IMG/VR virus record: IMGVR_UViG_3300007640_000340
Location: 1-20,311 of that record
Origin: a virus
Strand: one strand, 5' to 3'
Length of the DNA stretch: 20,311 nucleotides
Under the pieces are notes generated by a model that saw only the letters and a program-made list of their open reading frames with translations, was not told where the DNA came from and searched no databases. Shown piece after piece: positions 2,346 to 18,416 of the stretch. A program made the position numbers and the translations under genes. Every line of letters starts with the position of its first letter. Within the stretch, counting starts at the first letter, position 1.

Positions 2346-3836
2346 ATGAGCGACATGGATGAGTTTATTCACGACATGGACAGAAAGATGTCTGCAAAGT
2401 CGTTTGAATACTTCTTCACCGAAATTTTGGGCTTTGATTACTCCGGCCACCACAAGTCGTGGGATGAAGGACTGGCTGAAAACCGATATTACTGCGTGAA
2501 AGCGAGTCGTGACCACGGTAAGTCTGTATTCTTCATGTCATACGCTCTATGGCTCGCTACTTTCAACCCCGGAAACCACATCATGATTTTTTCTCACTCT
2601 CTTGAACAGACGCTTGAACACATGCGATTTATCCGTCAAAACATTGAGAACACACCTTCAATTCGCTATCTTATCCCCGAAGGCCGTCCGTGGCGAAAAA
2701 CCTACTTTGAGTTCAGTAACGGTAGCCGTATCATGGCTAAGTCGGTTGGTGGTGGTACTCGTGGTTTCCACCCGAATGTTGTACTGTGTGACGATATTTT
2801 GTGGGGTACGACGGGTACTGAACTACAGCGTGCCGCAGACTGGTTCTACGGTGTTCTGCTCCCTGTTCTTCACCACACGGGTCGCCTTATGATGGTGGGT
2901 ACACCGTTTTCGTACAATGACTTGTACTCTCAGTTGGAGCAGACTGAAACATTCCAAGTGGAAACATATCCCGCTATCAACAAAGAAGGCGAAGCCTTAT
3001 GGCCGGAGCGATGGGATTTGGAGTCCCTTGACCAACGACGACTTACTATGCCTGCAATTCAATTTTCCCGTGAGTACCTTTGTGAGCCAATTCACGATGT
3101 AGCCAGTATGTTTCCTAATGACATACTGGAAAAGGCACGCAACAAAGACCTCGTTCTTCTTGACCGTGCTGATACTGAATACGATGCAGAAGGCGAACCA
3201 GCAGGAGTTTTCGGGCAACACTTTATTGGATGGGACACTGCTATTGCTTCGGATAAAAACGCTGACTTTACCGCCATGACTGTTATGCGTATGATACCAA
3301 ATGAAAATGTAAAGCAAATCGTCGGCATTGTTCACGAGCGTGGTATGTCGGGACTGGCGCAGAAGAATCAAATCATGATGCTCAACAACCGCTTCCAGCC
3401 CGACCTCATTGAGTTGGAAGGCAACAACTTCCAGCGTATGTTCCAAGCCGAACTGCTTGAGATGCGCCAAGACATTCCAATCAAGACTTTCATGACGACA
3501 CGCACACGCAAAGAAAGCCTGTTCATGTCCCTCTTAATGGCTTTTGAGCAAGGGCAAATTCAAACTCCATACGGCGACAAGCGAAGCCGTGAGTTTACCC
3601 ACAAGTTAGAAACTGAACTCAACCGCTTCGGTATGCAAAAGAATGGTCGCTTGGAAAGCGTGGGTACGCACGACGACTTGGCCATGTCGCTGGCTTTGGC
3701 TAATTGGGCTACGAAGGAGTTCAAAGGCTCAGTTGTCCTGCTTGACGATGTGCTACCGGGCTTTGATGAGTGGATTCGTGGTAAACCACATCGCTCACGA
3801 GACAACAATCCTGCTGATGGGTGGATGATACCTTGA
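2346..3836 (+). CDS. terL: Terminase large subunit (DNA packaging ATPase-nuclease)
   Basis: 496 residues, normal length for the family. It pumps viral DNA into the procapsid through the portal and cuts the concatemer. ATPase domain: Walker A-like loop ASRDHGKS (residues 53-60), Walker B VVLCDD (145-150), and coupling motif VGTPF (184-188). RNase H-fold nuclease domain: GWDTAIASD with D297, the second acidic residue in DLIELEGNN (E358), and the final acidic pair in THDDLAMS (D443/D444). All expected motifs are present in order, so it looks active. The ATG has a good site, GGTGAT, five bases upstream. The C-terminus (GKPHRSRDNNPADGW) is short and polar. Only the subfamily is uncertain. Confidence 0.97.
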   Translation: MSDMDEFIHDMDRKMSAKSFEYFFTEILGFDYSGHHKSWDEGLAENRYYCVKASRDHGKSVFFMSYALWLATFNPGNHIMIFSHSLEQTLEHMRFIRQNIENTPSIRYLIPEGRPWRKTYFEFSNGSRIMAKSVGGGTRGFHPNVVLCDDILWGTTGTELQRAADWFYGVLLPVLHHTGRLMMVGTPFSYNDLYSQLEQTETFQVETYPAINKEGEALWPERWDLESLDQRRLTMPAIQFSREYLCEPIHDVASMFPNDILEKARNKDLVLLDRADTEYDAEGEPAGVFGQHFIGWDTAIASDKNADFTAMTVMRMIPNENVKQIVGIVHERGMSGLAQKNQIMMLNNRFQPDLIELEGNNFQRMFQAELLEMRQDIPIKTFMTTRTRKESLFMSLLMAFEQGQIQTPYGDKRSREFTHKLETELNRFGMQKNGRLESVGTHDDLAMSLALANWATKEFKGSVVLLDDVLPGFDEWIRGKPHRSRDNNPADGWMIP

Positions 3837-5748: not shown

Positions 5749-7053
5749 GTGGTCATTATGTGGGGGAGTATGTTAATCGGGGATGAATATGATTCACCCC
5801 TGCAAGTTGAGGATGAGTTTTCAAACACAGTTTTGAAGAATCTTGCTCAACATCCCTTTTTTCAACCACAAGATGTGCCATTAAATACTTTAAATATAGT
5901 CAAAGAAGATAAAGACGCAGTAAGCCTTTTTCCAAAAAACGGAGATGGGTGGTTTGAGAGTAAATATGGTACAGATGCTAATACAATTATTCGGATGTGT
6001 CGCAAAATGCGAAGACATGATAAGGTGTTTAAATCCGAATACGATAACATCATCAAAGATATACGCCAAGTAAAAGCAATGGAAGTTGACGCTACCATTA
6101 AATCTCTTACATGGGCGGTTGGAATGGAAGATGTAATTCGCAACATAGGGCTTAGTGACCGTTCTTTGAAAGCACTTCGTAAGTTTGGTGAATTAAGAGG
6201 AACAAGTTTGCAAAAAGCATGTCAACAATACCTCAAAGCCATGACTGTATTACAACATCTTAATGAAAAAATGGATTGGGACACTGATGACCAGCAAAAT
6301 TGGGTTGATGCTAACAGCATGAAAAAAGATGCTCAAAAAATGTGGCGCAATACATTGCATCAAATTGATAACTTGAAGAAGACCGATGTTGCCGCTTTGG
6401 AATACGCATCAAATCTTCTTGGAAAAGAAGGGGCACTTGGTAGTCGTGAAATTGTACGACGAGGGTATGGAGTTCTTAACAAATCCATGACACCTGCAAA
6501 AATGAGTTCTCTTCTCAAAATGTACGGTGAAGAGGTTGATGTTTACCGAGGAAGTAGCAATAGTACATATGTAAAACAAGGCACAAATGGTTTCATTATC
6601 AAAGATATGTGGGCGTACACCGCTGGTTTTGTAGATGCTGACGGTAGCATTTTCATTTCCGAGCGAGGTGACCCCCGTGTGACTATTGTAGCCAGTGGAG
6701 ATAACGGCAAAGCGCATTGCGAAGAGTTGCAGAAAATGATTGGTTGTGGTCGCCTTGTGTCCGACCAAAAATTGGCTAAAAACACCATTAAACCAGTTCA
6801 TCGGTTGATATTTTCTTCTAAGCAAGATATTCATGAAATTCTTAAAGGGGTCTTACCACATCTTAAACTCAAATCGTTACAAGCAAAGGCCGTTTTAAAT
6901 TATATTCAAGAAAAGGACAGTATGAGAAAAACGCAACTTTACCAACTGGTAACATACAATAATTGGAAAGACCATAAAAGTAAAGCCACTTCTCTCTTGA
7001 ACAAGTGGGGCGTTGATTTAGACACTATTGGTGGATATGCGGAGGGACTATGA
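5749..7053 (+). CDS. Unknown helical domain fused to a LAGLIDADG endonuclease domain
   Basis: 434 residues from GTG 5749 (AAAGGT site upstream); ATG 5758 and ATG 5770 are alternatives. Residues ~1-270 form a mostly helical domain I do not recognise (for example TIKSLTWAVGMEDVIRN). Residues ~285-395 form a single LAGLIDADG unit: WAYTAGFVDADGSIFIS (288-304) with the acidic D296 and D298, followed by a region typical of the family (HCEELQKMIGCGRL, then HRLIFSSKQDI, then LKLKSLQAKAVLNYI). One motif copy means it would act as a homodimer. The ending (GGYAEGL) has no intein splice residues, so this is a fusion, not an intein. It lies immediately upstream of, and overlaps, the portal gene. It may be a homing endonuclease that has captured a host gene's 3' end, or a domesticated packaging nuclease. 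Confidence 0.85.
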   Translation: MVIMWGSMLIGDEYDSPLQVEDEFSNTVLKNLAQHPFFQPQDVPLNTLNIVKEDKDAVSLFPKNGDGWFESKYGTDANTIIRMCRKMRRHDKVFKSEYDNIIKDIRQVKAMEVDATIKSLTWAVGMEDVIRNIGLSDRSLKALRKFGELRGTSLQKACQQYLKAMTVLQHLNEKMDWDTDDQQNWVDANSMKKDAQKMWRNTLHQIDNLKKTDVAALEYASNLLGKEGALGSREIVRRGYGVLNKSMTPAKMSSLLKMYGEEVDVYRGSSNSTYVKQGTNGFIIKDMWAYTAGFVDADGSIFISERGDPRVTIVASGDNGKAHCEELQKMIGCGRLVSDQKLAKNTIKPVHRLIFSSKQDIHEILKGVLPHLKLKSLQAKAVLNYIQEKDSMRKTQLYQLVTYNNWKDHKSKATSLLNKWGVDLDTIGGYAEGL

Positions 7054-8813
7054 TGGCTGAAGAACAAGGAAGAATATCTCGTTTTTTATCTGCGTTAGGA
7101 GGGCCATTCCGTCGTAAAGAATCCCCAACACCAACCATGCCACTTTGGACAAGTGGAATCCAAGAACCTGTGATGGCTCAAGGAATTACAATTCCAGCAC
7201 TTTACGCAGTGAGTAATGAATCACTTATTCTTCGTACAGTTCTTGCGAAACTACGCCAAGAAATGTTTCGTCGTGGTTATTATTGGGAAAAGAAATTTGC
7301 ACGCAAGTGTACTGTATGTGATGAAGAATATCAAAGCGAAGTAGATGCCTGTGCAGAATGTGGGGGTGAGGTTCGTAAACCCGACAATGACGAACTGACA
7401 TACTCAAAATGGCTTCTTAAACAAGAAAATAGCATGGAGCAATCTTTCATTCATGTGCTTAATGAAATAGAAAGTGACCTCAATGTTGTAGATGACGCTT
7501 TCATGATTCTTGTTAAGGAGTATTTTATTGACCCCGAATCAAAAGAAGTCGTCTTTTACAGGGTAAAAGAAATAATTCGTGGTGACCCCATATTCATGCG
7601 TATTGTCGCTGACAAGCGTGGTGTTCGTGGTGGACGCTTCAAGATATGTCTTATTCATCGTGATGAAGTCAAAACACACGCTGAAGATGACACATGTGAA
7701 CACTGTGGTGCCGAACTGCATGATGTACATTATGTAAACATGGCTGGTAGTGGTAAAACGCAATACTTTGCTGAGGGAGAGGTTCTTCATGTAAGTAAAT
7801 ACAAACCCTCAAAGTTGTACGGTCGCTCACCTGTAAATACAATGTGGCGACAAGCCATGACTTTGACAGCGATGGATAATTACATTTACACTGCATATCA
7901 AAAGCGAAGGATGCCGAAAGGAATTGTATCAGTCACTACAGATAATTTAGAATCAATGAAGTCTTTTTGGAAGGCCGTTGATGAGAAAATGGAGCGTGAC
8001 CCACACTACATTCCAAAAGTTGGCATTGAATCGGCTACAGGTCGTGGTGGTGTAAATTGGATTAAATTCATGGACACTTTAGAAGAGATGCAATATATTG
8101 CAGTTCGTGATGAAATTCGTAATCGTATGGCCGCTTACTACGGAGTATCGTCTGTATTCATGATTGATAGTGGTAAGTCGGGTGGATTAAACAACGAGGG
8201 TATGCAAATACTTGTTACCAACCGTGCAGTTGAATTTGGACAAAAGGTGTACACTGAGGTTTTGTTTCCACGCCTTCTCAAACAACTCAGTGTGAATGAT
8301 TGGAAATTAACACTGTACCCTAACGAGGAAGAAGATGAAATTACTCGTTTGCGTCGTGACTCCGAAGAACTCAATGTAGCACAACGGATGGCTCAACTTG
8401 GCTTTATGCCCGAACTCATTGAGGATACTGCTAACCGTGATATTCGGTTTACTTACAAGCGACCCGAACCTCAACCACCGCAACAAGGTGCACCTCCGGG
8501 CGGTATGCCTCCGGGCGGTATGCCTCCGGGCGGTATGCCTCCGGGCGGTATGCCTCCGGGTATGCCTATGGGGATGCCTCCCGGTGGAGGGCCACAAATG
8601 CCTCCACAGTTGGCTCAACAGATTATGCCTCCACCTCAACCCGGCGGTCAAGGCGTAGGACTCCGTAATCGTGGTCCTGCGGCACCTCAGCGAAGAGGAA
8701 GCATGGGTAGCGGTGCGCCGTTTACAAATGTTCAACAGCGTGGGCCGCAACCGTCCATGCAACAAAACATAAGCAATGCACTTTTGGACGCAAGACGGCC
8801 TCGTGGTCAATAA
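7050..8813 (+). CDS. Portal protein with two zinc-ribbon insertions and Gly-Pro-Met repeat tail
   Basis: 587 residues. Forms the dodecameric ring at the unique head vertex through which DNA enters and leaves. ATG 7050 overlaps the previous stop; ATG 7053 follows and is better spaced from GGAGGG. The portal-like core includes GEVLHVSKYKPSKLYGRSPV (about 252-271), a long central helix and the MAAYYGVSSVFM segment. Two metal sites are inserted: C87/C90 with C101/C104, and C200/H203 with C216/C219 (DDTCEHCG). Residues ~465-540 are a collagen-like run of GGMPP repeats followed by Pro/Gln-rich sequence, probably disordered and perhaps tail or capsid facing. The family assignment rests on the core pattern, length and position downstream of terL. 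Confidence 0.88.
   Translation: MMAEEQGRISRFLSALGGPFRRKESPTPTMPLWTSGIQEPVMAQGITIPALYAVSNESLILRTVLAKLRQEMFRRGYYWEKKFARKCTVCDEEYQSEVDACAECGGEVRKPDNDELTYSKWLLKQENSMEQSFIHVLNEIESDLNVVDDAFMILVKEYFIDPESKEVVFYRVKEIIRGDPIFMRIVADKRGVRGGRFKICLIHRDEVKTHAEDDTCEHCGAELHDVHYVNMAGSGKTQYFAEGEVLHVSKYKPSKLYGRSPVNTMWRQAMTLTAMDNYIYTAYQKRRMPKGIVSVTTDNLESMKSFWKAVDEKMERDPHYIPKVGIESATGRGGVNWIKFMDTLEEMQYIAVRDEIRNRMAAYYGVSSVFMIDSGKSGGLNNEGMQILVTNRAVEFGQKVYTEVLFPRLLKQLSVNDWKLTLYPNEEEDEITRLRRDSEELNVAQRMAQLGFMPELIEDTANRDIRFTYKRPEPQPPQQGAPPGGMPPGGMPPGGMPPGGMPPGMPMGMPPGGGPQMPPQLAQQIMPPPQPGGQGVGLRNRGPAAPQRRGSMGSGAPFTNVQQRGPQPSMQQNISNALLDARRPRGQ
8493..8564 (+). repeat. Tandem 15-bp repeat encoding GGMPP (4 perfect copies plus a shortened one)
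   Basis: The unit cctccgggcggtatg occurs four times without mismatch (8493-8552), then once without ggc (8553-8564). It codes for a Pro-Pro-Gly-Gly-Met run in the portal tail. Perfect nucleotide identity implies recent expansion by slippage or recombination, so copy number is likely to vary between related viruses. Confidence 0.97.
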
Positions 8814-10168: not shown

Positions 10169-13100
10169 GTGAACGACCACTTCTATGTATGCGGTAATGA
10201 ACTACTGAAATCATTGAATGACGGTCTTGACCTTCGCACAGCGGCGGCTGAATACATTCTCGCTTTTGAGAATCTTGACCATACTCCTTCCGAGCCGTTG
10301 TATAAATCATTGAAAAATACTGCTGATATAATTCTCAAAGACGAAGAGGATGCGGCTACGAAAGTAGATGATGATACTTACGAGTATCCCGAAGGAGAAG
10401 GTTATCTTTTTGCACAAACTCATACTCACGGTGAGCCTACAAACCATGTATGGAAAGATGGATTACAAACATCAGTAAATCCAAAATTTGCTCATGCAAT
10501 GTGGCCTTACTACCAACCACCCAGTGGCAAGCATCCATACCAACGCCACCACTTTCCTTTTCATGAAATCAATTATCCCCTTCTTCGCACCAACGCTGTT
10601 ACAGGTGACCCTCATTATGTTCGTATGCTTCGTGCTTGGGCACTTGCTGGTCATGGTAAAAGAGAAAAAGAAATGGAAAAGAAATTCTTTGACAAACTTG
10701 GTAAAAAACACCCTATGGTTGCAGGTTATCAAAAAGAAAAAAGTGGTAAGAAAGTAAACATTATTGGTGATACACGACCTTCGGGTACACTTCACCACCA
10801 TCAATATGATTTGTATGACCGTGATTACTTTCGCTGGTTAAAGAATAACTCCAACCGTCAAGAAGAGTTGTTAGCAACAGGAATGTCCAACGAAGAAATG
10901 AAAGAGCAATTGCGTCAAGAACACTTTGAAGACCGAGCGGCTATGTGGGAAAACAACGATACTACACTGAGTGACTCTTACGAAGAACATCCAAATCGTC
11001 TTGGTCATCTTGGTTATATGCTCGGTCTTGAATGGCTAAGTCCCGAAGAGCGTTCAGCCGTAATGCAACACATAAATGAGAAAGGTCTTGATGACCATGA
11101 ACTGATTACTCTCCCCAATGGGGAAAAGATACCATCTGCTCGTATCAAATATAACGCTCTCATGCGTATGACTCCCGAAATGAATTGGGCTATTCGCCCA
11201 ATGACACACATGGGCCGAAACGCTCACTACCATCAAGAAGACAATGATAATGATTACACTAAGGGAGAAGAAGGTATGTTCTTACAACAAGGGCTTGGTA
11301 CTCTTGCCCACGAACCGTTGGAAGAATTTGACGGTGTTTCTATTGCTTCTCATATTCTTAGTCGCATAAAAGAAAATTACGGTACTGAAAAGCGTATGCG
11401 GTATCTCCCTCGTCTTAACATTCACAAAGAACCAATGAAGGAACTTCAATATGATGAATTACTTGATGCGTCAAGAAGTCATTTCAAGGGTAAACAAAAT
11501 TTAGAAAAGGTAAGGATGAGTAAAGATGACCTTCTTTATTTGGCTGGTTATGACCCAAAGACACGGGAATTGATGAGCGAGCATCCTATTCATGGTAAAC
11601 TGGATGAACCCATTGTAGATGCTGGAATGATTGACTACATTGAGGCTGTCGCTAAAATGCGGTCTTCACTTCATCGTCAAATAAAAGACATTCGCAATCA
11701 TCGTGCATTCTTTACTTCACCCTTTGGCCCACACCCCGATGAAGAAAAGCCCGAATACTGGGAAACAAGTGCTGATAATGATTTTACTTACGGTCCGGGT
11801 CATTTTTGGAGTACACCGTTTCAAAGTACAGGTGGAGCAGGAATGTCTTACGCCACATACATGGAGATGCTTCATGCGACACACGCTCAAGAAGATGGTT
11901 CAACACCGTTTATTGAAAGCAAGGATGATACAGGTGAAAACTTCTTTGAGCCAAATATGATGAATAAAACTCTCGCTAATCACTTCATGCCGTTGAGGTC
12001 AAAAATCATAGGTCAATACCAAGAAAAAATGAAAAAGGTGAACACAAAAGAAAAACAATTTGTATCTGCTGGAAAGGGTTTTGTTTACCGAAATGAGGCT
12101 GAAACTCTTCAAGAAATGCTTTCACCATTCGGTGTTTCAAAGAAACATCCTCATCGTGAAGGCACTACAAACAAAAACAACATCACTGAACACAAGTCTT
12201 CACTCAATCCTCAGTACGAATACGCTATACGACACATGACGAAAAATGAGCGAGATAGCAAATTTGGTACCCACCTTCAACCCCTTCAATTCCCACATAC
12301 TGTAATTCCTAATTATCACATTGGCGGCAAAACTGGTTATGGTGCGGCACCTTCCGATAGTAACCTTCACCGTAACGCCCAACTTGCTCATTTTGTAGAA
12401 ACATTAGGAGGTCGTATGTATCACCCTCACACCCCCGCTAAAAAATCCATGCAAAAGCCAAGCGATTTCATACGAGGGGATGAATCAACCAGCGGTGGTA
12501 TGTCTCGTGATGAGTTTACAGACTTTATGAGATGGGGAAGCGGTACAGGGTTTTCTTTCAAGTCACTCAAAAATAAAGTTCTCAATAACAAAGATATGAA
12601 CCATACGATGACTGCTATCACTCAAGCGTCAAAAATACTGGGTACACAAGACCCGAAGGAGATTCTTGAATACCTTACTCACGGTGACCACGAAGAACTA
12701 AACCGTGCGTTGTTGGGTCGTGAAATCGGAGAATTTGATACCAATAAATTCAATATCGGGATAGACAGTATGAAAGCCAGTATGAATACTGAGATTCAAA
12801 ACAAGAAAAAGAATCAAAAAAGTAAAACCACAATGACCACTGATGAAAAAGATGTGGTGTCACGCTTTTTACAATTTGGTGGTATGATGCCCGCTTCTCA
12901 AGAAGAAAGCGAGTTGAATACCAATCTTGAAATGATGAATCAGCAATTGATAGATACGCCAGTTGAGCAACGAGGCGAACTGATGCAACAAATTCGTGAC
13001 ACAACTGAACAACTTGAGCGTGTACAACAAAAAATGAACAAAAAGAAGCAATCTTCTCATTGGGAAAAAGATGCCAATCGTACACATACAATTTTCAGCG

Positions 13101-15877
13101 GCCATCGTAAAACAATTGCCGAGGTAGCACGAGATGTTATACTACCAAAATATCTTGAGCATGACCCAAATGCCTTTGACCCAAATGACCCGAAAACATT
13201 CCTTGCAAATCATCACCAACTTATGCGTGACGCTCAACGCTACATCGCATCTGTGCCTCATTCAGTACATGGTATAACAACGACTAATTATGGCATAGAT
13301 GATGCAGTAAAACCAACAAAACCTTCACAAAATCCATTACACGCTACGGTAGGTAAGCATTTATCCACAGATGGAAAAATGATTGATGGTAACATGAGCG
13401 TGGATGAAGTGCTTAAAATTCTCAATATAGAAAAGACCCCTGTTGCTAAAGAAAAAGCACGAGAACTCATTAACGCTTCTAATGAAGCCAATACACCTTT
13501 GTTCGCATCAACTATCAAAGACATTTTACTTAGCGGAAAAATTCCAAACATAGATGCTATCAATCTTAATCAATTTACAGATGAAGAAATCATGAGTAAG
13601 CCCGAAGAAGAATTAACAGATGAAGAACGCTTCTTTCGCCATGCACGAGAAAATGGTTATCATAAAGCCATGAATCACTTTCAACAACAAACCGATAACA
13701 AGCAATGGAAAGGGCACCACTCTCACGCTATACCTCGCTATTTGGCTATGAAACTCAACCCACAACAATTTGATTTTTCTATGACAGCGGCAGGCGTAGG
13801 AGCAATAAGTGGAGATATACACAATGCAAAAGGATTCAACAGTAAATCATTGGCTCGCACAACGAACACAACGAAAAACCATCTTGATACCATCGTTCAC
13901 TTTGACCCTCGTGTTATGGATGATGAAGAAGGTATTTTTACTCCCGGTGAAGACTTTTCGGAAACAGCAGGATTTGGACAACGACCTGTAGGTGCGGCCA
14001 CGCCTGCTAATACTGCTTTGACTGACCACTTTGACAGTGGTGCATGGCATCACGGATATGAATTGACACCAACGGTTGGTGCTGAGTTTGATGCTGAGGG
14101 GAATATATTCGCAGGCTCAAATGTTAGTACAGGATTGTATCACAGTGTACCTCAAGAACTTACTGAAATGGTGCATGGAAAGGAAATAGCAAATCAAGTG
14201 TACGCAAACGCCCCACCGCCAAGAAACCCTTCCAACGCTCACCAAAGTATGAATCTTGAATCGGCTGACACAGCGAGTGACAATATGTACACCATAGCGG
14301 CCAGTGAGATGACTGAACTTATCACATCACTTCTTGACCCCGATATTATGCTTACAAAGAGTGATGATGCAAAATGGAGTCCACCTGTTCGTCCTATGCA
14401 CCGTATCTTTGAGATGAGTGACTTAGAACATTTGCGTGGTTTCAGCGGTTCATGGGTAGTAAGTAAGTGGTACGATGGAAAGCGTCTTGTTATTGTAAAC
14501 AAAGATGGGGAAATTACAGCGTATGACGAAGGTGGTAGAAAGAAAGGTCTTCGTAAAACCACGAAAGAGGCTCTTGAAAAGATGAACGATAAGAATTACA
14601 CGCTTGACGCTATACTTGGTGAAGAGGAATTACATATCATTGATATTATCAATTACGATGATAACAATGTGGCTGAGATGCAGATGTTTGAGCGATTAAA
14701 GATATTGCGCTCACAGTTTGATAGTCAAGAACATGTTATCGTTCCCGGCCCACATGATACTCGCATGACGGATGATGAAGGATTGGAAGAGGCTGTAAAG
14801 AATCTTAAAGAAGACCACGATAACATTCTCCTTCGTGATAACAAATCAACATACATGCGTGGAGAACGCCGCCATCCTAAGTGGGTGTTATATCGTGATT
14901 CTCGTGATTTCAACTTCATAGTTCTTGACCGAAGAGGCAAAGGCCCATACACATACCAACTTGGTGCTGGCCCCATTCTTGAAATAGAAGGACTTGGAAA
15001 CCGAGCAGTAGAGCATAAAGGAGAACATTACATGGATGTAGGTACTGCACACAATCAAAAGAAGGTCTTCAAGGTTGGAGATGTTGTTCGTGCATCTATT
15101 ACAGGTATCTCAAAGAAGAACCGTAAGAATCGCCCTGTGTACAATGTACAGTTCAAAGAATTGGAAGGGGAGGGCGAAGGAGAAGGTGCGGCAAGTACAG
15201 AATCTCTTGACCTCATGACTAAATCATTTCCTCCTATTCTTATTCCGCACGATATTGAAATCTCGGACTCACAAATTCAAATCGTGTTGAAGGGAATTGA
15301 CACAGTAGTGTATGAAATGGAAGAATTGAACGATACATGGGTACTACATTCTCCTACAAGCACAATGGGTGCTTTAACAAAAACTGATTACCCAGTAATT
15401 CTTTCCGAAAGCCTATTCCCGTTTTGGTCGTCTGTTGCTCCTTTGTTAGTAAAGGGGTACTTGAGGAAGGCTACAGAAGTGGATATGCCAAAGAAACCTA
15501 CAGATGAGCAAATGGAAGAGGGAAGTGCGGGTATTCTTGAAGATGATGATGAGGAGCGATTACTCAAACCTAATAATACCAAGAAGGCGTTAGAAATTAT
15601 TTCACGAGCATTGGATAAAATTTCCAAAGAAAAGATGACTTGGACAGGTCCGAAGGGATTGGGTATAGATGTAGGTACACCGCAAGAATCACCTCGTGGC
15701 CCCACACAACTTCGCAATGAGTCCACACTCCCCGATTTTGACGGTGAAAAGAAAATTACCGATGAAACAAAAGAGAAGAAAAAAGAAAGACTGAATCACA
15801 TTCAAGTGCAAACTGACGAGGGTGAAAATTTGTCTATAGACTACGATAATGACCAGCCTTTGTTATCTCGCTCTTAA
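10169..15877 (+). CDS. Giant protein (1902 residues) with internal degenerate ATP-ligase-like domain
   Basis: GTG 10169 with GGCGGTGAT just upstream is the likely start; the frame is open further upstream but that overlaps the previous gene. Residues ~1-1380 are unrecognised: His/Trp-rich N-terminal third (THTHGEPTNHVWKDG), and a coiled-coil or charged region around 930-960 (QQIRDTTEQLERVQQKMNKK). Residues ~1405-1665 align with the nucleotidyltransferase plus OB fold of ATP-dependent DNA ligases: motif I-like SKWYDGKR (1432-1439), III-like AILGEEE, IIIa-like LHIIDIINYDD, IV-like DNILLR (1551-1556), V-like PKWVLYR, then an OB-like segment (GDVVRASITGI). The catalytic lysine position is Trp, with Lys one residue early, and motifs IV and V are also altered. 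The ~237-residue tail is charged. It is located between portal and protease, where minor-head or ejection proteins usually lie. Confidence 0.88.
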   Translation: MNDHFYVCGNELLKSLNDGLDLRTAAAEYILAFENLDHTPSEPLYKSLKNTADIILKDEEDAATKVDDDTYEYPEGEGYLFAQTHTHGEPTNHVWKDGLQTSVNPKFAHAMWPYYQPPSGKHPYQRHHFPFHEINYPLLRTNAVTGDPHYVRMLRAWALAGHGKREKEMEKKFFDKLGKKHPMVAGYQKEKSGKKVNIIGDTRPSGTLHHHQYDLYDRDYFRWLKNNSNRQEELLATGMSNEEMKEQLRQEHFEDRAAMWENNDTTLSDSYEEHPNRLGHLGYMLGLEWLSPEERSAVMQHINEKGLDDHELITLPNGEKIPSARIKYNALMRMTPEMNWAIRPMTHMGRNAHYHQEDNDNDYTKGEEGMFLQQGLGTLAHEPLEEFDGVSIASHILSRIKENYGTEKRMRYLPRLNIHKEPMKELQYDELLDASRSHFKGKQNLEKVRMSKDDLLYLAGYDPKTRELMSEHPIHGKLDEPIVDAGMIDYIEAVAKMRSSLHRQIKDIRNHRAFFTSPFGPHPDEEKPEYWETSADNDFTYGPGHFWSTPFQSTGGAGMSYATYMEMLHATHAQEDGSTPFIESKDDTGENFFEPNMMNKTLANHFMPLRSKIIGQYQEKMKKVNTKEKQFVSAGKGFVYRNEAETLQEMLSPFGVSKKHPHREGTTNKNNITEHKSSLNPQYEYAIRHMTKNERDSKFGTHLQPLQFPHTVIPNYHIGGKTGYGAAPSDSNLHRNAQLAHFVETLGGRMYHPHTPAKKSMQKPSDFIRGDESTSGGMSRDEFTDFMRWGSGTGFSFKSLKNKVLNNKDMNHTMTAITQASKILGTQDPKEILEYLTHGDHEELNRALLGREIGEFDTNKFNIGIDSMKASMNTEIQNKKKNQKSKTTMTTDEKDVVSRFLQFGGMMPASQEESELNTNLEMMNQQLIDTPVEQRGELMQQIRDTTEQLERVQQKMNKKKQSSHWEKDANRTHTIFSGHRKTIAEVARDVILPKYLEHDPNAFDPNDPKTFLANHHQLMRDAQRYIASVPHSVHGITTTNYGIDDAVKPTKPSQNPLHATVGKHLSTDGKMIDGNMSVDEVLKILNIEKTPVAKEKARELINASNEANTPLFASTIKDILLSGKIPNIDAINLNQFTDEEIMSKPEEELTDEERFFRHARENGYHKAMNHFQQQTDNKQWKGHHSHAIPRYLAMKLNPQQFDFSMTAAGVGAISGDIHNAKGFNSKSLARTTNTTKNHLDTIVHFDPRVMDDEEGIFTPGEDFSETAGFGQRPVGAATPANTALTDHFDSGAWHHGYELTPTVGAEFDAEGNIFAGSNVSTGLYHSVPQELTEMVHGKEIANQVYANAPPPRNPSNAHQSMNLESADTASDNMYTIAASEMTELITSLLDPDIMLTKSDDAKWSPPVRPMHRIFEMSDLEHLRGFSGSWVVSKWYDGKRLVIVNKDGEITAYDEGGRKKGLRKTTKEALEKMNDKNYTLDAILGEEELHIIDIINYDDNNVAEMQMFERLKILRSQFDSQEHVIVPGPHDTRMTDDEGLEEAVKNLKEDHDNILLRDNKSTYMRGERRHPKWVLYRDSRDFNFIVLDRRGKGPYTYQLGAGPILEIEGLGNRAVEHKGEHYMDVGTAHNQKKVFKVGDVVRASITGISKKNRKNRPVYNVQFKELEGEGEGEGAASTESLDLMTKSFPPILIPHDIEISDSQIQIVLKGIDTVVYEMEELNDTWVLHSPTSTMGALTKTDYPVILSESLFPFWSSVAPLLVKGYLRKATEVDMPKKPTDEQMEEGSAGILEDDDEERLLKPNNTKKALEIISRALDKISKEKMTWTGPKGLGIDVGTPQESPRGPTQLRNESTLPDFDGEKKITDETKEKKKERLNHIQVQTDEGENLSIDYDNDQPLLSRS
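14381..15163 (+). other. Ligase-fold domain within the giant protein
   Basis: This segment encodes residues ~1405-1665 of the giant protein. The order and spacing of motifs I, III, IIIa, IV and V plus an OB-like C-terminus follow the ATP-dependent ligase/capping superfamily. The nearest form of motif IV/V, DNILLRDNKSTYMRGER..PKW, resembles bacterial/phage LigD-type EG(V/I)xLR...Y..G.R...W. Catalytic residues appear substituted: Lys to Trp in motif I, Glu-Gly to Asp-Asn in motif IV, and motif V lysines to Leu/Tyr/Arg. The segment between III and IIIa is unusually short. Confidence 0.75.
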
Positions 15878-15916: not shown

Positions 15917-17287
15917 ATGCTCGCAGTTCAACGACCCAATGACGGTATCACTCTTCTCAAGAGTGGTAACGATTTGGTTGTTGCTGGTTACGCATCGGTT
16001 GAACTTGTTGACAAGCAAGGCGACCTTATTACTCGTGGTGCTTTGAGTGATGCCTTTGATGGCTTCATGAAGAGCGACAAATACCGAAATGTGCAACTGG
16101 CTCACTCCAACATTCAAGTTGGGGAAGTAATTGACAGTTACATAGATTCTAACGGACGAATGTGGAAATCCGAATGTGATGACACAGGAATGTTCGTTGT
16201 AGTACAACTCCGCAATGATATAGAGAAGGCTCGTGAAGTAGCCGCTGAAATCCGCAAGGGCAACCTTCGTGGGTTTTCTATTGGAGGACAAGCATTCAAG
16301 CGAGTGCGAAAGTCCGACATGGAAAAAGGCGACTACCAAGAGATTTCAAAAATGGAGTTGCATGAGGTGACGATTTGTGAAAAGGGTATCAACCCCGAAG
16401 CGCAATTCCGAATTTTGAAGGAGGATACCACTATGACAGACGAAAACAGTGATTTGACAGGAATTATGTCACGCCTTGAAGCCCGATTGGATGCTATGGA
16501 AAAGGGAGAACTACCTCCTGCTCTTAAAGAATCTATGAAAGACAGCAAGGCTGATGAAGAAAAGAAGCCCGAAAAAGAAGAAGGTGACGAAATGAAAGAT
16601 GAAAAGAAAGAAAACCCCTTTGCAAAGGGAGAATACAGCGATGTTATTTCCTCTGAGTATCTATCTTGGATGGAAAGCACTCTCAAGTCGGCTGGTGTTG
16701 ATACACTCGCCGCTCGTGACCACTTTGACGCTCTTGAAAAAGCACAACTTGGTGGCTTTGATAACCCCGATGCCGTGGACGGTGCTGACTACTTCGGTGG
16801 TCAAGTCCGTGGTCGTGGACAAGAAGGAGGTTCACCATCTACTGGTGCAATCAACGCAATCACAGCATCCGGTGGAAAAACCCCATCCGGTGCTCTCGGA
16901 CCAGCCCAATTGTCTAAGGGTTACCTCAACGCTGAAAATGTGAGTGAGGCTGACCTTGAAGCCGCTTACGAAGTGTACAAAGCCGACGCATCGGAACAAA
17001 CTTTCCGAAACGACCTTGAAGGACACTTTGCAAACCGTTTCCAACAAGAAATGCAACTTGCAAAGTCCGAGGCTGAAAAAGCCGCTTTTGATGCACGAGC
17101 ACCTCTTACGGAAATCGTGAAGTCCATTGAGCAACTTTCGGAGCGTATTGACAATCTTGGTGCTGGAACTTCTTCCACTATCCAAAAGTCAGTGTCCACT
17201 ATTGATGTCCCTTCCACGCAAGACCTTGCCAACATGGGTTGGGATGAGGTACACTCGCTTGCACAGCGAACCTTGCGAGGGGCTTAA
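15917..17287 (+). CDS. HK97-type prohead protease fused to scaffold domain
   Basis: 456 residues. Residues ~1-170 are a serine protease of the HK97 prohead type that cleaves scaffold and capsid parts during head maturation: catalytic His in NVQLAHSN (H63), Ser in LRGFSIGG (S121) and an acidic third member in ELHEVTICEKG (E150). Residues ~173-456 are an acidic, Lys/Glu-rich, coiled-coil scaffold (ISRLEARLDAM-type helices, a Gly/Ser linker near 300-325, and an amphipathic helix EIVKSIEQLSERIDNLG), ending in NMGWDEVHSLAQRTLRGA, which is shared with the coiled-coil gene at 9221. The ATG has no ribosome binding site but a TATA box upstream. A strong internal ribosome binding site at the protease-scaffold boundary suggests separate scaffold production. 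Confidence 0.92.
   Translation: MLAVQRPNDGITLLKSGNDLVVAGYASVELVDKQGDLITRGALSDAFDGFMKSDKYRNVQLAHSNIQVGEVIDSYIDSNGRMWKSECDDTGMFVVVQLRNDIEKAREVAAEIRKGNLRGFSIGGQAFKRVRKSDMEKGDYQEISKMELHEVTICEKGINPEAQFRILKEDTTMTDENSDLTGIMSRLEARLDAMEKGELPPALKESMKDSKADEEKKPEKEEGDEMKDEKKENPFAKGEYSDVISSEYLSWMESTLKSAGVDTLAARDHFDALEKAQLGGFDNPDAVDGADYFGGQVRGRGQEGGSPSTGAINAITASGGKTPSGALGPAQLSKGYLNAENVSEADLEAAYEVYKADASEQTFRNDLEGHFANRFQQEMQLAKSEAEKAAFDARAPLTEIVKSIEQLSERIDNLGAGTSSTIQKSVSTIDVPSTQDLANMGWDEVHSLAQRTLRGA
16418..16424 (+). promoter_or_regulatory. Strong internal Shine-Dalgarno (AAGGAGG) for nested scaffold start
   Basis: AAGGAGG ends eight bases before in-frame ATG 16433 (protease-scaffold residue M173). It is the longest match to the archaeal/bacterial anti-Shine-Dalgarno sequence that I see in the window, and lies exactly where the protease domain ends. 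Confidence 0.75.
16433..17287 (+). CDS. Nested scaffold protein (in-frame internal start of protease-scaffold gene)
   Basis: A 284-residue product from ATG 16433, the same frame and stop as the fused gene. The organisation resembles phage lambda C/Nu3, where a scaffold is translated from inside the protease gene. The product would be acidic and largely helical with the shared C-terminal W-E-H-AQ motif, and would provide extra scaffold without protease. Evidence is the strong binding site, spacing of eight and position at the domain boundary; expression is inferred. Confidence 0.65.
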   Translation: MTDENSDLTGIMSRLEARLDAMEKGELPPALKESMKDSKADEEKKPEKEEGDEMKDEKKENPFAKGEYSDVISSEYLSWMESTLKSAGVDTLAARDHFDALEKAQLGGFDNPDAVDGADYFGGQVRGRGQEGGSPSTGAINAITASGGKTPSGALGPAQLSKGYLNAENVSEADLEAAYEVYKADASEQTFRNDLEGHFANRFQQEMQLAKSEAEKAAFDARAPLTEIVKSIEQLSERIDNLGAGTSSTIQKSVSTIDVPSTQDLANMGWDEVHSLAQRTLRGA

Positions 17288-17315: not shown

Positions 17316-18416
17316 ATGGCACGAGATTACATTAGAAACATTACTGATATGGAACGATACTACTATGGCGCAGGAAACGCTATGGGTTACTCCTACTCCG
17401 GTAGCGAGTTGCTCAAGGCTGATGCACCTATGCTATCAACCACTGCTGGTACATACCAAGCAATCTACGGACGCAAAGTTTGGAGTCAGTTGAACCAAGA
17501 GTTCAACGCCTTCTCTATTCTACCAAAGCGACCATGGGAGCGCAGTGGATGGCGAGTTATCACCGAGCGTCCTTCCTTCTCTGTTGGTGGCGGTGTTGCA
17601 GAAAACGCAACTCTTCCCGACACCACCAAACCTACCTTCCAACACATTGCCGCAAAGCCAAAGACTGTTGTTCACACCTTTGACATGAGCGAAACCGCAA
17701 TGTTCCTTTCCGACAAAGATGACGGACTTGGCGACATTCGTGCAATCCTTAAGGAAGAAATGGGTAAGCACCACGCAGAACACATCAACAAGATGCTCAC
17801 TGTTGACAAGGCTACTGTTGCCGGAAACGACTTTGAATCCCTTGACCGTGTTACTACTGGGGCTTCCGCAGGTTCCGCAGAAGACATGTACTCCATTGAC
17901 CGAAGTGCAAACTCTTGGTCACTTGCAGAACATGATGAAAACGGCGGTACTGACCGAAACCTTTCACTTGACCATTTGGACACTTTGTTCCAAAAGACAT
18001 GGACTCGTGGTGGAAACCCAAAGGTCATCCTCACTGGATACGACACTTTGATGCGTCTTCAACAACTTCTACAATCCCAACAACGATTTATGGAAGAGAA
18101 GCGTGTTACCCCTACCTACAACGGTGTTAAGGGTGTTCCCGGTCTTGAAGCAGGATTCATTGTTGCAACATACAATGGTGTCCCAATCATCCCATCTAAG
18201 GATGTGCAACCCGACACCTTGAGCCGTATGTATTTCCTTGACACTGATTACTTGTACTTTAGTACAGCAATTCCAACCCAATACTTTGAGAGCGGTATTG
18301 AAACTGGCGACCCATTCGCCATCAACCGCCTCGGACAAGAAGGAATGTATCGTACTATGGGTGAACTATGGACGACTTTCTTCGGCGGTCACGGCTCTAT
18401 CCGTGACCTCAAGTGA
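17316..18416 (+). CDS. Major capsid protein (HK97 fold)
   Basis: 366 residues; ATG 17316 has a textbook GAGGTGA site seven bases upstream. It forms the icosahedral head shell. The fold assignment rests on position directly after the protease-scaffold gene, size, and segments typical of the family: an N-terminal arm rich in Tyr/Gly; the region KPKTVVHTFDMSETAMFLSD; a spine-helix-like KEEMGKHHAEHINKML; a P-domain/A-domain part with NPKVILTGYDTLMRLQQLL; and a C-terminal strand region GVPIIPSKDV...SRMYFLDTDYLYF. There is no obvious N-terminal delta domain, which agrees with the scaffold being in the preceding gene. The start of a run of C-ending codons (aac, gac, ttc) suggests high expression. 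Confidence 0.9.
   Translation: MARDYIRNITDMERYYYGAGNAMGYSYSGSELLKADAPMLSTTAGTYQAIYGRKVWSQLNQEFNAFSILPKRPWERSGWRVITERPSFSVGGGVAENATLPDTTKPTFQHIAAKPKTVVHTFDMSETAMFLSDKDDGLGDIRAILKEEMGKHHAEHINKMLTVDKATVAGNDFESLDRVTTGASAGSAEDMYSIDRSANSWSLAEHDENGGTDRNLSLDHLDTLFQKTWTRGGNPKVILTGYDTLMRLQQLLQSQQRFMEEKRVTPTYNGVKGVPGLEAGFIVATYNGVPIIPSKDVQPDTLSRMYFLDTDYLYFSTAIPTQYFESGIETGDPFAINRLGQEGMYRTMGELWTTFFGGHGSIRDLK

Follow-up and report, generated by a model that had tools for sequence, protein, structure and literature searches.

A DNA-ligase-like domain without ligase catalytic residues in a giant head-region protein of putative magroviruses

Archaeal ATP-dependent DNA ligases of the Pyrococcus/Thermococcus type (PF01068; PDB 2cfm, 4eq5) combine a nucleotidyltransferase (NTase) fold with an OB fold and carry their motifs in a set order. 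Enzyme-type domains are also found in large proteins encoded in the head-gene regions of tailed viruses. Among these are multidomain (polyvalent) phage proteins encoded near late genes and thought to be injected (PMC5512222), and MuF polymorphic toxins (PMC5512222, PMC5576092). The inactive PBECR domain of the phage Mu head protein gp30, described in PMC5512222, provides a precedent for a dead enzyme in a head protein. The haloarchaeal virus HVTV-1 encodes, between a head-assembly gene and its protease, the large protein gp115, in which a zeta-kinase domain occurs together with an ADP-ribosyltransferase domain. Here we describe a stretch of viral DNA of 20,311 nucleotides (IMG/VR record IMGVR_UViG_3300007640_000340, positions 1 to 20,311; hereafter the window) that encodes a giant head-region protein of 1902 amino acids. 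Like polyvalent proteins and MuF toxins, this protein has an enzyme-type domain, which in this case is predicted to have a DNA-ligase fold and has lost the ligase catalytic residues (the pseudo-ligase domain).

The gene of the giant protein has a GTG start at 10169 and a stop at 15877. It sits between the portal (7050-8813) and S78 protease (15917-17287) genes, with the major capsid protein (MCP) gene after the protease, and full-length homologues occur in the same gene order. A first-pass annotation, made from the sequence alone, had proposed a ligase-like domain at residues 1405-1665 (14381-15163) of a protein between portal and protease. The open reading frame (ORF) is real and the location of the domain holds, with its bounds better placed at 14357-15178. 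The features of the gene are as follows.

10169 to 15877, + strand: giant head-region protein, 1902 amino acids
14357 to 15178, + strand: pseudo-ligase domain (NTase fold plus OB fold; Pfam PF01068, AlphaFold, Foldseek), residues 1397-1670
14393 to 14410, + strand: PMHRIF signature, where ligases have a P-M-L-A segment before motif I; H, I and F invariant in 55 representatives
14465 to 14482, + strand: degenerate motif I, K-W-Y-D-G-K; Trp codon 14468-14470 at the nucleophilic Lys position, Lys codon 14465-14467 unconserved in other clades
14600 to 14614, + strand: motif III region, degenerate (TLDAI), with Ile/Val where LDGE has its Glu
14819 to 14836, + strand: degenerate motif IV, DNILLR, Glu column unconserved
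14837 to 14884, + strand: near-invariant signature D-x-K-S-T-Y-M-x-G-E-x-R-H-P-K-W, including K1571 (codon 14879-14881)
14885 to 14896, + strand: motif V, degenerate (VLYR), with Leu and Arg where ligases have their two Lys
14897 to 15178, + strand: OB-fold part of the pseudo-ligase domain, missing in one divergent clade
15656 to 15742, + strand: highly conserved C-terminal tail, GLGIDVGTPxESPRGPT...LPDFD

Profile and structure searches agreed on the nature of the domain. The isolated domain matched Pfam DNA_ligase_A_M (PF01068) with 29.3 bits (cut-off 26.2, E=8.7e-7), as did 29 of 29 members of the first homologue alignment, and a PDB profile search found the Thermococcus DNA ligase 4eq5 (E=3e-6). 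An earlier AlphaFold model, for which 29 close homologues were used, was of low quality (pLDDT 54), although a PDB search still put ligases first; a broader alignment of 55 diverse homologues solved the fold (pLDDT 91.3, pTM 0.81). In a Foldseek search with this model, archaeal and human DNA ligases came out on top with alignments covering both the NTase and the OB parts, the best matches being Pyrococcus and Thermococcus ligases (E~2e-11, TMq 0.68-0.70). The model thus indicates that residues ~1397-1670 are an NTase plus OB fold of the DNA-ligase type. We consider the domain real since such a structural match, whose absence the first-pass annotation had named as grounds for abandoning its proposal, was found.

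The likeness to archaeal ligases extends to the conserved G-x-R of motif I, the Y-x-x-G and the W before motif V. Unlike them, the domain closes its OB part without a recognisable RFP-type motif and has no DNA-binding N-terminal domain, and it is embedded in a giant head-region protein. A weaker match was found to the m3G-cap-binding domain of snurportin-1 (PF21974; E=0.005, 17.2 bits, under the Pfam cut-off of 27); of the 29 homologues, 12 matched it at E<0.1. Snurportin is a non-catalytic NTase fold that binds a nucleotide cap. It is a eukaryotic import adaptor and the pseudo-ligase domain is structurally closer to DNA ligases, but it may serve as a useful analogue for a non-catalytic domain of this fold. 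The best viral structural match was a protein of 827 amino acids (BFVD A0A516LT18; E=8.7e-22, 27% identity), which is probably a distant member of the pseudo-ligase family.

The residues that carry out ligase chemistry are lost from this fold. The strings SKWYDGKR, DNILLR and WVLYR, reported by the first-pass annotation as altered motifs I, IV and V, are present in that order at the place it gave. The EIKYDG of ligases aligns with SKWYDG and, in three alignments, KxDG falls onto WYDG; therefore Trp1434 stands at the nucleophile position, as had been proposed, and no insertion was seen in the alignments that would restore the canonical Lys. A comparison of the domain family with two intact viral ligases by hhalign gave the same register, its match not being significant with a profile of two sequences. 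Motif III of the window's domain is degenerate too (LDGE to LDAI). We scored the catalytic columns over 55 representatives across clades. The nucleophile column of motif I held W in 42, Y in 5, M in 3, H in 3 and Q in 2, with Lys in none, and no Lys was found at this position among the motif I strings of 188 aligned loci. The motif I Glu column holds Ser/Thr; the motif III Glu was found in 0/55, its column holding Ile/Val/Met/Thr; the motif IV Glu was found in 13/55, scattered; and the first and second Lys of motif V were found in 0/55 and 2/55, respectively. In one clade (L194, L204, L210, L217, L228) the OB part is unrecognisable and HPKW runs directly into the following region.

Other positions of the domain are fixed in all 55 representatives. 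These are H1411, I1413, F1414, W1429, R1509, R1514, D1535, D1557, Y1562, M1563, G1565, E1566, H1569, P1570, K1571 and W1572, with K1571 (of HPKW) being the only universally conserved Lys. No other part of the giant protein is as conserved as the domain. Within the window's clade, the median ratio of nonsynonymous to synonymous substitution rates (dN/dS) was ~0.04 for the domain versus ~0.11 for the rest of the protein, estimated from the 15 of 66 pairs that were usable and with dS near saturation. The raw nonsynonymous proportions (0.09 versus 0.26, at near-equal synonymous proportions) point in the same direction. The new invariant signature (HRIF; YM-GE; HPKW) and the low dN/dS indicate that this is a maintained pseudoenzyme rather than a relic or a decaying gene.

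We found 433 IMG/VR stretches confirmed to encode a relative of the domain (pattern and tblastn scans), with divergent clades added through an MCP-led scan of IMG/VR. In these clades all loci with enough upstream sequence encode a giant protein of ~1780-2150 amino acids with the domain, and every locus of sufficient length shows the same succession of portal, giant protein, protease and MCP. Distances between the domains correlate with those between the MCPs (Mantel r=0.63, 0/2000 permutations as high), as expected of vertical inheritance. The domain is lacking in more distant viruses that share the MCP (HVTV-1 relatives, L169, L170, L226), and when 84,980 cellular genomes were scanned for two conserved patterns no credible relative came up. 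Two Nocardioides matches from that scan were rejected, the frames being antisense to unrelated genes. A tblastn search of the giant protein against annotated phages gave no match. The first-pass annotation's remark that it knew of no such family is correct as far as described families go, although IMG/VR contains the domain in abundance. DNA-ligase-fold pseudoenzymes are little described and none is reported in a viral head-module protein in the literature searched; neither a ligase-type domain nor its family-wide inactivation figures in the passages of PMC5512222 and PMC5576092 consulted.

The + strand of the window carries the head module of a tailed virus: terminase, portal, small ORFs, the giant ORF, S78 protease and MCP. 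Its recognised genes, in addition to that of the giant protein, are listed below.

2346 to 3836, + strand: terminase large subunit
7050 to 8813, + strand: portal protein (Phage_portal, E=4.6e-10)
15917 to 17287, + strand: prohead protease (S78, E=1.8e-9)
17316 to 18416, + strand: MCP, HK97 type (36% identity to the HVTV-1 MCP)

HVTV-1 is the nearest virus to the MCP, the portal (29% identity) and the protease (30%). The window is a 20-kb fragment, and contigs of its close relatives reach 95-115 kb. These long contigs encode a family B DNA polymerase (PolB; 9 of 10) and a Cpn60-type chaperonin (10 of 10). Magrovirales, viruses linked to marine Poseidoniales, have an MCP related to that of Druskaviridae, PolB, a chaperonin and contigs near 90-110 kb (PMC10768690). 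Since the relatives' contigs show these traits, in gene content as well as in size, we infer that the window is a fragment of a magrovirus-type tailed-virus genome, and its host would presumably be found among the Poseidoniales.

Some further observations concern this module. The C-terminal tail of the giant protein (15656-15742) is nearly invariant across clades and the middle of the protein is variable; the tail is possibly a signal for the protease or for assembly. The ORF at 5749-7053, which directly precedes the portal, has a LAGLIDADG-type endonuclease domain at its end (phrog_5046, E=3e-8). It has 45-72% identity over the full ORF in four divergent loci inspected and, being matched in 156/157 hit loci, seems to belong stably to the head/packaging module rather than to be a sporadic insertion. 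Near its residues 83-108 the portal has CxxC pairs resembling a zinc ribbon, and its tail is a Gly/Met/Pro-rich repeat.

Our preferred explanation, to which we give a probability of roughly 0.6, is that the domain is a non-catalytic pseudoenzyme serving a magrovirus head-region protein in binding or in assembly. A magrovirus ancestor would have captured the core (NTase plus OB) of an ATP-dependent DNA ligase, which became fused into the giant head-module protein and then lost its chemistry while being kept for a non-catalytic job. Most probably it gives the giant protein a rigid module for binding or docking while the head is assembled or within the capsid, and the giant protein perhaps enters a new host along with the DNA. 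The partner could be a nucleotide, a nucleic acid, the portal or protease, or a host protein. Judged by gene order, the giant protein may be part of the virion; a non-catalytic role and a capsid location are likewise inferred. A dead ligase fold put to a new use had been one of the proposals of the first-pass annotation, and this part of it stands, with the nucleophile, the Glu of motifs I and III and the first Lys of motif V absent in 55/55 and strong purifying selection. Three points weigh against our explanation. First, these viruses are uncultured and known from sequence alone. Second, no recognised domain was found in the N-terminal ~1370 residues of the giant protein. Third, the tightly conserved D1557, E1566, H1569 and K1571 could form a new active site.

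Another explanation, possible but considerably less probable, is that the giant protein is an effector or decoy that travels in the virion and leaves it together with the DNA, the pseudo-ligase domain binding a nucleotide, a nucleic-acid end or a host factor and thereby blunting host defence or repair. In addition to the injected phage proteins mentioned above (PMC5512222), genes of effector type or for handling nucleotides occupy the portal-protease slot, or lie close to it, in related viruses. The zeta domain of HVTV-1 gp115 is also found in L153 and L156, and in a Druskaviridae-type relative (L166, 1-3768) a single ORF of at least 1256 amino acids combines a polyA-polymerase head with zeta-kinase and MuF domains. 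A halovirus-like contig (L165, 3059-4540) has a stand-alone ligase of 493 amino acids with canonical motifs between a MuF-type gene and the protease, possibly a relic of how the ligase entered the slot. By analogy, these cases point to the slot as a site where archaeal tailed viruses gain enzyme-type genes. As a separate observation, a more distant relative (L170, 4056-6323) encodes a subtilase (Peptidase_S8, E=6e-59) between portal and protease.

Several findings speak against such an effector. Like gp115 and its Druskaviridae counterparts, the giant protein is a large protein in a syntenic position, but a full-length profile of it showed no sequence homology to HVTV-1 gp112-116, gp119 or gp120. 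The MuF domain (PF04233) that marks the polymorphic toxins was not detected in eight long magrovirus contigs, although the controls were positive (HVTV-1, L166) or weakly so (L165). In addition, the domain is kept in all clades, unlike typical swapped effectors. Given the missing homology and the missing MuF domain, the giant protein is assigned to neither the MuF nor the gp115 class. As a separate comparison, it resembles polyvalent proteins in being a large protein among late/virion genes; these have at least two recognised effector or enzyme domains, whereas PF01068 was the only one found among 23 full-length homologues. The more specific proposal that magrovirus particles inject the pseudo-ligase as a decoy occupying a host ligand (a nick, a clamp partner or a defence nucleotide) we regard as doubtful.

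DNA ligases encircle nicked DNA, and the gene lies within the packaging/head module, both of which would suit a non-catalytic module gripping packaged DNA or its ends; a DNA-binding module in the virion had been among the possibilities named by the first-pass annotation. However, the net charge of the domain is near-neutral to strongly acidic (-2 in the window, down to -29) and one clade has lost the OB part, so DNA binding is not favoured and we consider it unlikely. Even less probable is an active nucleotidyltransferase with a relocated nucleophile such as the K1571 of HPKW. This residue is invariant together with H1569, D1557 and E1566, and pseudokinases offer a precedent for catalytic lysines that have migrated (PMC10211241). 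However, the Glu of motifs I and III and the first Lys of motif V, needed for the chemistry, are also lost, and residues 172-179 of the model lie in a strand, on which K1571 has the opposite parity to the motif V positions and should thus point away from the pocket. The remaining idea, raised by the first-pass annotation, of an active enzyme using Lys 1433 one residue upstream of the nucleophile position can practically be set aside: SKW is conserved inside the window's own clade, but in 13 of the 55 representatives, from other clades, the Lys is replaced (by Ile, Val, His, Asp, Ala, Ser or Leu).

Intact ligases were also sought in the long magrovirus-type contigs. PF01068 searches found a separate one in the L217 contig only (379 amino acids, motif I RKFDG), with no match to it in 19 other contigs (1/20 in all, contigs that may be incomplete), and neither an NAD-type ligase (PF01653) nor an RNA_ligase (PF09414) was found in the long contigs searched. 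The intact ATP-dependent viral ligases of L165 (493 amino acids, near the same slot) and L291 (379 amino acids) differ from the pseudo-ligase in being stand-alone genes with a canonical motif I (IKLDG and RKFDG, respectively) and an intact OB part. Almost all magrovirus viral operational taxonomic units are stated to encode a DNA ligase (PMC10160649). This statement may be partly based on the dead domain, given that the latter scores as a ligase in Pfam and that 1 of 20 long contigs had a match to the separate ligase of the L217 contig.

In sum, a very widespread group of viruses of marine archaea has a ligase-fold domain as a fixed feature, one that is most likely dead and yet scores as "DNA ligase" in Pfam despite its lost catalytic residues. 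If the decoy proposal were true, an ancient ligase would have been turned into a virion-borne inhibitor or sensor in these viruses.

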